From NCBI GenBank assembly GCA_029688905.1, contig JARULB010000008.1, forward strand, positions 62,001-126,000: a stretch of DNA of 64,000 nucleotides. The letters are read 5' to 3'. The position numbers and the translations under genes are program-made. The notes under the pieces are model-generated. The model was not told the origin of the DNA, did no database searches, and worked only from the letters and a program-made list of their open reading frames with translations. Every line of letters begins with the position of its first letter. Position 1 is the first letter of the stretch. This stretch comes from Balneolales bacterium ANBcel1 (lineage in GTDB: Bacteria; Bacteroidota; Rhodothermia; Balneolales; Natronogracilivirgulaceae). Of the stretch, positions 56,408 through 59,894 are shown in pieces.

Positions 56408-57382
56408 TCAGATTTTTATCAAGCGGGTTGCCAATTCGCGGGCATGCGGAAAGTTCCTTAGGCCCATTGCCGTGATGTTCAGCGCCATGGGTACCGGTAC
56501 GGGCAAGGCACTGTTAAAAGAGTGGATTCTTTCCCAAACCTCTGTCATCAGGTCCAGTGATGCCTCCGCCGGATCGCCGCTCTGCATAATTTGCCACTCG
56601 ACCTTTTCGGGGATGAAGACCCCCAGCCACCGCAGGAAGTCAATATCCTTTTGGGCGGATACAGGAGTAAAACTCCAGTAGATCATTGGCAGCCTTGCGG
56701 CCTTCTCCGTCAGCAAACCGGAGAGCTCATCCAGCATGGAGACCGGGGTTTCCGACTCCGTAATAATCTGCGTGGTGAAGAAATCGGCACCCGATTCACA
56801 TTTTTGAAACACTCTTTGCGCTTCCGAAATCCCTCCCACATCACGGTTCGGGATGCAGATATTGCCCACGGAGAAATCGGTGGAGGGCAGGCTTCCGTCC
56901 AGATACCTGTGTCTGCCCCGGTTCAAAAACTGCTTCGCCATACGATTTCCCTCGGTCACCGACGGTCCGGGGTATTCGATCTCCGGCGACTCCCCACCCA
57001 CGAATACAACCTTTCTGATGCCATACTCTCTGCGAGTGTCCAGCAGCCACTGCTCCTGATCGGCAGGCGGCTGCTTGACAATCACTCTGTTGATGACATA
57101 CTCGGTATCCATAAATTCGGCCAGCATTCTGGCGTAGTCGCGGGGTGAAACTCTTCTTTTGAAGGCACTCCTGCGCTTCCCCCGGTCCCCTTTCTGCGTT
57201 TCATCCTGAATTTCCGGCAGGTTGATCACATCGACAGGGACACGCTGCCGGATGCTGTCCAGGTACGCCTTGTGCCGGGACAATCCCTCCTGCTCCTTGC
57301 CGAGCTCCGGAGGGAGAATCTCTATCATCAGCGGTACGCGGAAATGATTGCGGGAAATATCGTCTTTACTATCAGGATTCAT
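56408..57382 (-). CDS. Methylenetetrahydrofolate reductase-like protein
   Basis: 324 residues with the layout of the MTHFR barrel but low similarity to standard MetF. Corresponding segments: MIEILPPEL (usual EFFPPK), VFVGGESPEIEYPG (usual LRGD), SVGNICIPNRD (usual GYPEGH region), CESGADFFTTQIIT (usual GADFIITQ) and MIYWSFTPVSAQKDIDFLRWLGVFIP (usual PI.GI.P). Convergent with metH (stops six bases apart), which needs the product 5-methyltetrahydrofolate; a role in that supply is likely. A more distant member could instead be a NADH-independent or orphan type. Last gene after the SppA fusion, 22 bases downstream of it. Confidence 0.75.
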   Translation of the reverse strand: MNPDSKDDISRNHFRVPLMIEILPPELGKEQEGLSRHKAYLDSIRQRVPVDVINLPEIQDETQKGDRGKRRSAFKRRVSPRDYARMLAEFMDTEYVINRVIVKQPPADQEQWLLDTRREYGIRKVVFVGGESPEIEYPGPSVTEGNRMAKQFLNRGRHRYLDGSLPSTDFSVGNICIPNRDVGGISEAQRVFQKCESGADFFTTQIITESETPVSMLDELSGLLTEKAARLPMIYWSFTPVSAQKDIDFLRWLGVFIPEKVEWQIMQSGDPAEASLDLMTEVWERIHSFNSALPVPVPMALNITAMGLRNFPHARELATRLIKI

Positions 57383-57404: not shown

Positions 57405-59894
57405 TCACTGTATTTGTTTATGGTCCAGGTACTTCATCCAGCTGAAATCTTCAAAGGGCATGATGATCAATGGGGAGGCGTTGTATTCGATCATCAGTTC
57501 CAGGTACTCCTTCACCGGATCTTTCTGTTCGATATCCGGCGCACCGGAACCGAAAATTCCACCCAGCAGCAGCGAAAGGGAAAACGGCTGGAGTTCGGGA
57601 CCTTCGACGATTATCACTTTGTCGTCCGGCCTGAGTCCGGCTTTCTCACGCGCAATGCCGATAGCGGCATAGAGGCTTCCAAGCTCATCCACCAGATTGT
57701 GTCCGAGCGCGTCGGCGCCTGTCCAGATTCTGCCGGCGGCAACTTCCCGAATGTCATCGGCCTCCGCTCCGCGGCCCTCGGCCACTTTTTCGATGAAATC
57801 ATCATAAAGATGGTTCACGCGCCTGACCATCCCTTCACGTTCTGCTTCGGTGAGGGCACGGTTCGGCAGACTCAAGCCGATCAGAGGGAGCGTTGGGCCG
57901 AAAGAGAGATCGGCCGACTTTCCCCGGCTCACGTAATCGGCATTAAGCCTCAGTTTGTTGCTCATGCCGTCATCCCAGATCCAGCCGGATGCCACACCAA
58001 TGCTTCCGGTGATGGTATTCGGTGTTGCCACGATGGTGTCGGCATACATCGAGATCCAGTATCCGCCGGAAGCGGCAACCGATCCCATGGAAACGATGAC
58101 CGGCTTCACTTCCGTTGTCTTCCGGAGTTCTTCGGCCACAAGATCGGAGGCAAGCGGATCACCGCCCGGCGAATCGGCTCTCAGCACAATGGCTTTCACC
58201 TCCCTGTCGTTTCGCATTTTACGGATTTCCCGGGACAGTACGCGGGCTCTGATTCCGCTGGTGTTCATGGTCGGTCCCTGGGCATAGAGCACCGCGATTT
58301 TTGAGGCGGGTCCCCAGTGGTCATCGCCCGGCTTCTGATAGGCGTACATCTGACCAGGAGCGATGCTGCGCTTCCTGCTTCCCTCCAGCTTTTCGATGAT
58401 ATCCGGAATATCGGCAGGGCGGCCGAGCGTATCCGCGATACCGGCTTCCACCAGGTCGGCGGCTGTAAGATAGAGGCCGCGGTCGATCAACGCGTCGAAC
58501 TGTTCGTCATCCAGCCCGCGGGAGGCGGTTACATCACCTCTGACCAGCTCATAAAAGCCATCGATCATCACCTGACGCTGTTCCCGGTCGGCATCCGACA
58601 TGTCGCTTCTTGAGATCATTTCAAAAGCCGACTTGTACTCCATTTCCCGGAATTCGTCAAACCCGATGCCCACGCTTTCCAGCAACTCCGCCAGATAAGT
58701 ACTGCCGGTTACATAACCTGGAATGGAAAGGCTGCCCTGCGGGTCAAGAATCACGTAGTCGGCAACCGATGCCAGATGGAGGGTATTCATGCCACCCCTC
58801 TCAATGAAGACAATCACCTTCTTCCCGCCGGCCTGAAATGTTTCCAGGGCATCGCGTATCTCCCAGGTTTTGGCGTGATCAACGCCAAGTGTGGAAATAT
58901 CGAGCACAATACCGGCTACGGAAGGATCCTCTCCGGCCTCATGGATGTGCCGCAGCACGGGAAGGTAGGTCTGCCGGTTGTCCAGGAACCTGAAGTTCTG
59001 GTAAGGCAGGGCGCCGCGCAGCGGCATATTCACATAGCGGTCGTTCTTGCGGATGTGGCGGTCGAACGGATTGCGGTCTTTGGCTCCCATACGAATACTG
59101 TAGGAGTTGTACCGGTGATTCGCGTCGGTGTCGCGGTGTGACTGATAGCTGACACCCGTTCTTCCGAAGCTGAACTGGATGCCGGCGGTATAGCCGATAT
59201 TGTCGATATAGCGGCCGGTGAGTCGAAGGCCCGACATAATTTCCGCCGCAAACCCGGCCGACCAGCGACCATCCAGAACGCCATCGGTCTCATGATTAAC
59301 GGCGTAATCGCCGAAAAGCGCCAGAACAGGCGTCCCCGTCGGGCGAATCGCCAGATCGGCGACGGCTTCATAATAATTGCCGTCGAAGGTAGTGGTGCCC
59401 ATCATCCCGAATGACAAATAGCGGTTCGGCCGGGAGATGGTTCCGAAAGTGATGTTGGTCTTCAGATCGAACAGATCGGTATCGCCGCCATACCAGTTCA
59501 GCGCGATACCTGCGGCGGCGGCGTCCGTACCTCCACCGATTGCGATGCGATAGTCCCGGTAAACCTGATCCATCCAGTCGTTTCGGACAAAGCTGAATGC
59601 CGCGCCAGGAAATCCGAAGAAGCCGCCGTAGCGCCGGACATCCGTCCAGAATTCGTCGGAAGACCAGTGGAACGCGATATCCGGCTGATGCAGAAACTGC
59701 AGCATGGCGGGGTTATCGTATCCATACAGGCCGGAATTCATCACTCCCGGTGACGTCAGCAGGAAATCGGTGCGCTGATAGTAACTCTCAAAACCGATGC
59801 CCTGGGAGGTGTTGTCTGACTGAGCAAGGGAAACAGGCGTAAAAGCCAAAAGGAGAAGGATCAAAACCATCCCGTAGCAGTAATAGTGTTTCAT
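57405..59894 (-). CDS. sppA: Beta-barrel / SppA signal-peptide-peptidase fusion
   Basis: 829 residues from ATG 59894 (MKHYYCYGMVLILLLLAFTPVSLA is the signal). The first ~270 residues are beta-rich with GLYGYDNPAML near 57-67, like PorV/FadL-type outer-membrane barrels. From about 310 on it is a full 67K-type SppA: tandem ClpP-fold halves with the catalytic Lys K421 (MEYKSAFEMISRSDMS) and Ser S609 (SVAASGGYWISMYAD) both in place. SppA normally sits in the inner membrane and degrades released signal peptides; here the N-terminal helix typical of E. coli is replaced by a barrel-like part. Gene order pfkB-type kinase, rdgB, this, MTHFR-like on one strand. Confidence 0.88.
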   Translation of the reverse strand: MKHYYCYGMVLILLLLAFTPVSLAQSDNTSQGIGFESYYQRTDFLLTSPGVMNSGLYGYDNPAMLQFLHQPDIAFHWSSDEFWTDVRRYGGFFGFPGAAFSFVRNDWMDQVYRDYRIAIGGGTDAAAAGIALNWYGGDTDLFDLKTNITFGTISRPNRYLSFGMMGTTTFDGNYYEAVADLAIRPTGTPVLALFGDYAVNHETDGVLDGRWSAGFAAEIMSGLRLTGRYIDNIGYTAGIQFSFGRTGVSYQSHRDTDANHRYNSYSIRMGAKDRNPFDRHIRKNDRYVNMPLRGALPYQNFRFLDNRQTYLPVLRHIHEAGEDPSVAGIVLDISTLGVDHAKTWEIRDALETFQAGGKKVIVFIERGGMNTLHLASVADYVILDPQGSLSIPGYVTGSTYLAELLESVGIGFDEFREMEYKSAFEMISRSDMSDADREQRQVMIDGFYELVRGDVTASRGLDDEQFDALIDRGLYLTAADLVEAGIADTLGRPADIPDIIEKLEGSRKRSIAPGQMYAYQKPGDDHWGPASKIAVLYAQGPTMNTSGIRARVLSREIRKMRNDREVKAIVLRADSPGGDPLASDLVAEELRKTTEVKPVIVSMGSVAASGGYWISMYADTIVATPNTITGSIGVASGWIWDDGMSNKLRLNADYVSRGKSADLSFGPTLPLIGLSLPNRALTEAEREGMVRRVNHLYDDFIEKVAEGRGAEADDIREVAAGRIWTGADALGHNLVDELGSLYAAIGIAREKAGLRPDDKVIIVEGPELQPFSLSLLLGGIFGSGAPDIEQKDPVKEYLELMIEYNASPLIIMPFEDFSWMKYLDHKQIQ

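Follow-up and report, generated by a model that had tools for sequence, protein, structure and literature searches.

SppA is known for clearing signal peptides at the inner membrane, and in E. coli it carries one N-terminal inner-membrane helix. This enzyme, also called protease IV (67K type, family S49; 3bez, 3bf0), has two S49 domains per chain, with the catalytic lysine in the first and the serine in the second. Among outer membrane (OM) barrels, FadL, TodX and TbuX have 14 strands and an N-terminal plug with an NPA motif, and PorV of the type 9 secretion system (T9SS) translocon (6h3i, 8gl6) has the same barrel fold. In FadL, the long extracellular loops 3 and 4 form a ligand groove. Its plug reportedly depends on the NPA motif for substrate-induced opening (PMC8407342). 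Barrels of this kind with appended domains have been described in Treponema pallidum, whose FadL-like proteins continue into C-terminal helical/TPR domains (PMC8407342).

We analysed a gene that combines features of both groups, located in a 64,000-nucleotide stretch of Balneolales bacterium ANBcel1 (hereafter the window; GCA_029688905.1, contig JARULB010000008.1, positions 62,001 to 126,000). The open reading frame (57405..59894 of the window, minus strand, ATG start) encodes an 829-aa protein that shares with E. coli SppA the two S49 domains and the distribution of catalytic residues between them, but has a signal peptide and a predicted 14-strand barrel where the membrane helix would be. 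The fusion resembles FadL, TodX and TbuX in strand number, in its N-terminal plug with NPA motif and in fold (Z 22-23), but differs in its very short extracellular loops, the lack of a Pfam match for the barrel and the C-terminal peptidase. With PorV it shares the barrel fold (Z 23) and, weakly, a sequence profile around the NPA motif, whereas it does not match the PorV family model and also occurs in genomes without a T9SS. As in T. pallidum, a FadL-type barrel is joined to an added soluble C-terminal domain, which is helical there and an enzyme here. We propose, with a probability of roughly 0.62, that this protein is an SppA-type peptidase whose inner-membrane anchor was swapped for a FadL/PorV-type barrel, most likely for envelope quality control.

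The fusion contains a complete double-domain SppA

A complete double-domain SppA occupies residues 300-760 of the fusion (all feature coordinates below are on the minus strand of the window). Pfam Peptidase_S49 (PF01343) matched two stretches (2.3e-57, 193.7 bits against a gathering cut-off of 24.9), as did SppA_dom, and phmmer aligned residues 310-755 with E. coli SppA 3bez (2.3e-52). The first S49 half spans about residues 300-520 (58335..58997) and the second residues 531-760 (57615..58304). From the phmmer alignment, with the 3bez chain offset worked out by hand, the catalytic lysine of E. coli SppA corresponds to K421 in the first half (codon 58632..58634) and the nucleophilic serine to S609 in the second (codon 58068..58070); the aligned E. 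coli positions are K209 and S409. Both residues were invariant in 49/49 homologues. The modelled peptidase also has its two S49 domains in tandem and folds like SppA when compared with 3bez (Z 37.8, rmsd 3.0, 454 residues aligned by VIA). With NCBIfam TIGR00705 (SppA_67K) the fusion scored 283.4 bits, under the equivalog cut-off of 311.45, and the helix that directly precedes the peptidase in the SppA 67K type is absent, with the signal peptide and barrel in its place. The fusion is very probably an active SppA-type serine/lysine peptidase.

The N-terminal part is predicted to be a 14-strand OM barrel

Residues 1-24 (59823..59894) form a signal peptide, modelled as a helix at residues 2-23, with predicted cleavage at about A24/Q25 and no lipobox cysteine; residues 22-30 are of low confidence in the AlphaFold2 model. 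This model, built on a 49-sequence alignment (mean pLDDT 86.1, pTM 0.79), displays 14 strands within residues 72-269 (59088..59681), and the N-terminal segment ahead of them contains short helices. When the barrel was folded by itself from a single sequence, the pLDDT was 33, and this model was left out of the analysis. To compare folds, 1000 Foldseek candidates were realigned by VIA. The best matches to the barrel were FadL (2r88; Z 23.1, rmsd 3.0, 228 aligned) and T9SS PorV (6h3i_F; Z 23.1, rmsd 3.2, 244 aligned; 8gl6_F, Z 23.0), followed by TbuX (Z 22.1) and then OmpG (Z 16). Sequence identity to the matched barrels was only 6-10%, and the barrel profile found no match among PDB sequences, the relation being visible by fold comparison only. 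The 270 N-terminal residues had no match in Pfam or NCBIfam. Genome contigs searched with only the barrel yielded 55 loci.

Two alignment-wide tests were performed on the sequences, with the structure model supplying strand borders only. Hydrophobicity alternated between inward and outward strand positions by 1.17, as compared to 0.64 +/- 0.13 in within-strand shuffles (0/20,000 as high), and the same test revealed no alternation in the strands of SppA itself. Predicted periplasmic turns were more conserved than predicted extracellular loops (2.90 vs 1.58 bits; 0/20,000 permutations). A soluble beta-sandwich was rejected for the N-terminal part, given that its strands alternate and that its top matches among solved structures are all OM barrels. 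In the model, this part is a 14-strand OM-type barrel.

Two pieces of the N-terminal part are the best conserved. The FadL-like plug segment (residues 48-68; 59691..59753; 3.54 bits) contains GLYGYDNP, invariant across the 49-sequence alignment; within it N61-P62 are invariant and A63 is present in more than 90% of sequences. A profile of the fusion matched the PorV-family proteins of this genome exactly at the NPA segment (P 0.0012; reversed profile, 0.24), and by sequence GLYGYDNP carries the NPA motif known from the plug of FadL. The end of strand 14 and the junction with the peptidase (residues 266-276, SIRMGAKDRNP; 59067..59099) average 3.25 bits. Invariant charged residues also lie in or beside barrel strands, for example E218 and R268. 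Conservation of the plug and of the barrel-peptidase junction hints that the barrel is more than a holder, and argues against a purely passive anchor.

The original prediction of a barrel ahead of a complete SppA with both catalytic residues is borne out by the 14 modelled strands (residues 72-269, mean pLDDT 86), the Z of ~23 to FadL and PorV, and the invariance of K421 and S609. Its suggestion of a peptidase at the OM is well supported as a probable location by the modelled fold, the strand alternation, the loop conservation and the replacement of the membrane helix by a signal peptide. Fourteen strands that start from a periplasmic N terminus finish in the periplasm, as in the FadL-fold orientation, and the peptidase is therefore predicted to face the periplasm rather than the cell surface.

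The fusion is conserved across phyla and appears to have been transferred

In all 55 loci SppA follows the barrel unless a contig end cuts the gene, and one locus is split over two frames. Because the entire fusion is conserved at these 55 loci, which span several phyla, chance is excluded, and a frame or assembly artefact was ruled out on the same grounds. Carriers comprise Balneolales, Ignavibacteria, Chlorobi- and Bacteroidetes-labelled genomes, Saccharospirillum, Natronospirillum, three Bacillota-labelled MAGs and one contig labelled Latescibacterota. The three Bacillota-labelled MAGs have Omp85, which indicates that an OM is present. The barrel form was found in 15/20 genomes of the window's own family, several of which are incomplete, in 11/148 genomes of its phylum, and in the query genome only among 274 genomes of the Saccharospirillum class.

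Most of the 20 family genomes also encode an ordinary SppA, about 590-620 aa long, and ordinary SppAs of the window's genome and related ones have an N-terminal membrane helix. The window's genome carries both types, as do most carriers. In eight carriers the barrel form was the sole S49 peptidase found, for example in a single-contig, 99% complete genome (G151) and in the Ignavibacterium chromosome CP070637 (G203); here, it may cover the job of ordinary SppA too. A 1312-aa S49 frame in another genome (G154) was rejected as a further fusion, since its extra length comes from read-through of a frame upstream of an ordinary SppA. The genome of locus L049 (G197) contains two S49 frames of more than 800 aa and thus apparently has barrel-SppA in duplicate.

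In a tree built from the peptidase part, a single branch with full support separates barrel from ordinary forms, with the root placed by assumption and a distant subfamily left out; this topology is consistent with a single fusion event. The Saccharospirillum and Natronospirillum copies (L043-L046, L048) nest among those of Balneolota (support 97), a placement indicating that the whole fusion was transferred across phyla from Balneolota into Gammaproteobacteria. The copies from Bacillota cluster with those labelled Ignavibacteria and Bacteroidetes (support 99). The copy on the contig labelled Candidatus Latescibacterota (L040) falls inside Balneolales, reflecting either a mis-binned contig or gene transfer. 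The second, distant subfamily (L145, L147-L151), from the same phylum, comprises proteins of 800-888 aa with ~22% barrel identity and keeps the plug motif as [YLI]NPA; a simple [FY]KS search did not find the lysine motif in two members (L150, L151).

A probable role in envelope quality control

A periplasm-facing SppA at the OM would probably serve envelope quality control. The fusion would be exported by Sec and its barrel inserted into the OM, leaving the peptidase moiety on the periplasmic side, beginning about 14 residues past the last strand, where it may assemble as an SppA tetramer beneath the membrane. There, it could cut membrane-associated or misfolded polypeptides at the inner face of the OM, candidate substrates being failed OM proteins, lipoprotein fragments and stray hydrophobic peptides, while the ordinary SppA, retained by most carriers, works alongside it at the inner membrane. 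The eight carriers with no other S49 peptidase fit poorly with a purely OM role.

The barrel might instead be a working FadL-like channel that lets hydrophobic peptides or lipopeptides in or out, with the attached SppA digesting them upon arrival in the periplasm, either for uptake and digestion or as protection against membrane peptides. The FadL fold, the invariant NPA plug motif reportedly needed for FadL opening (PMC8407342), the conserved plug and junction and the invariant charged residues would all suit such a channel. However, the predicted extracellular loops are 2-9 residues long and weakly conserved, so that the fusion lacks the surface groove that loops 3 and 4 build in FadL, which argues against FadL-like capture from outside; we consider the channel a minority possibility. 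Similarly unlikely is a coupled OM machine, in which a gated-plug FadL-type barrel would take hydrophobic polypeptides laterally out of the membrane, or from the exterior, and feed them directly into a periplasmic SppA chamber, amounting to intramembrane-type proteolysis at the OM.

Alternatively, the fusion could be a plain SppA for which the barrel is just another export or holding device, its location having little functional meaning. The eight carriers in which it may simply substitute for ordinary SppA favour this explanation, but most carriers retain both forms, and conservation of the plug, the periplasmic turns and the junction exceeds the needs of a passive anchor; we therefore regard it as improbable.

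The original prediction had further raised a possible link to secretion in a T9SS-using cell; a T9SS role is not supported. SprA was absent from 8/35 carriers (five Saccharospirillum/Natronospirillum genomes and the three Bacillota MAGs), and the barrel-SppA family must therefore work without a T9SS in these; no T9SS genes lie beside the fusion gene, and the NCBIfam PorV model NF033709 matched the window's genome at other loci only. In Flavobacterium columnare, deletion of SppA abolished gliding and raised vesicle release (PMC13236525), but this SppA is of the ordinary helix-anchored type, unlike barrel-SppA. A T9SS accessory, in which a PorV-like shuttle brings the peptidase to process or clear T9SS cargo, is thus very improbable given the SprA-less carriers, the periplasm-facing peptidase and the absence of T9SS neighbours, even though PorV is among the nearest solved barrels, SprA is present in all tested Bacteroidota-type carriers, the window's genome encodes SprA together with members of the PorV family, and loss of the ordinary F. 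columnare SppA affects gliding.

The analysis suggests that some bacteria run a second, OM-anchored 'signal peptide peptidase'. If so, a conserved, horizontally transferred family would put SppA-type proteolysis on the OM, offer a direct handle on the removal of OM debris and add a FadL-fold barrel joined to an enzyme. The fold components are already known, but their combination has no Pfam or NCBIfam model, and because the barrel has none, these proteins are likely annotated only as 'signal peptide peptidase SppA'. Our searches of an open-access paper library found no description of the combination. Cultured carriers such as Saccharospirillum impatiens make barrel-SppA testable.

Gene neighbourhoods

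No conserved gene neighbourhood pointing to substrates was found around the barrel-SppA loci; in the window the neighbours are housekeeping genes (pfkB, rdgB, metF and metH), retained in close relatives only. At nine Ignavibacteria-type loci, an ABC ATPase gene lies beside or near barrel-SppA on the opposite strand, MlaF-like in eight (L061, L062, L069, L072, L073, L078, L080 and L081; on the 5' side) and LolD-like in one (L079); the four ATPase genes scanned, three of them MlaF-like, scored under equivalog cut-offs. An MlaF- or LolD-like ATPase beside or near the gene is a weak hint of OM upkeep that, given these scores, we do not count as evidence. In the window, the gene separating metH from barrel-SppA (56408-57382, minus strand) encodes a divergent methylenetetrahydrofolate reductase that scores under the Pfam cut-off.
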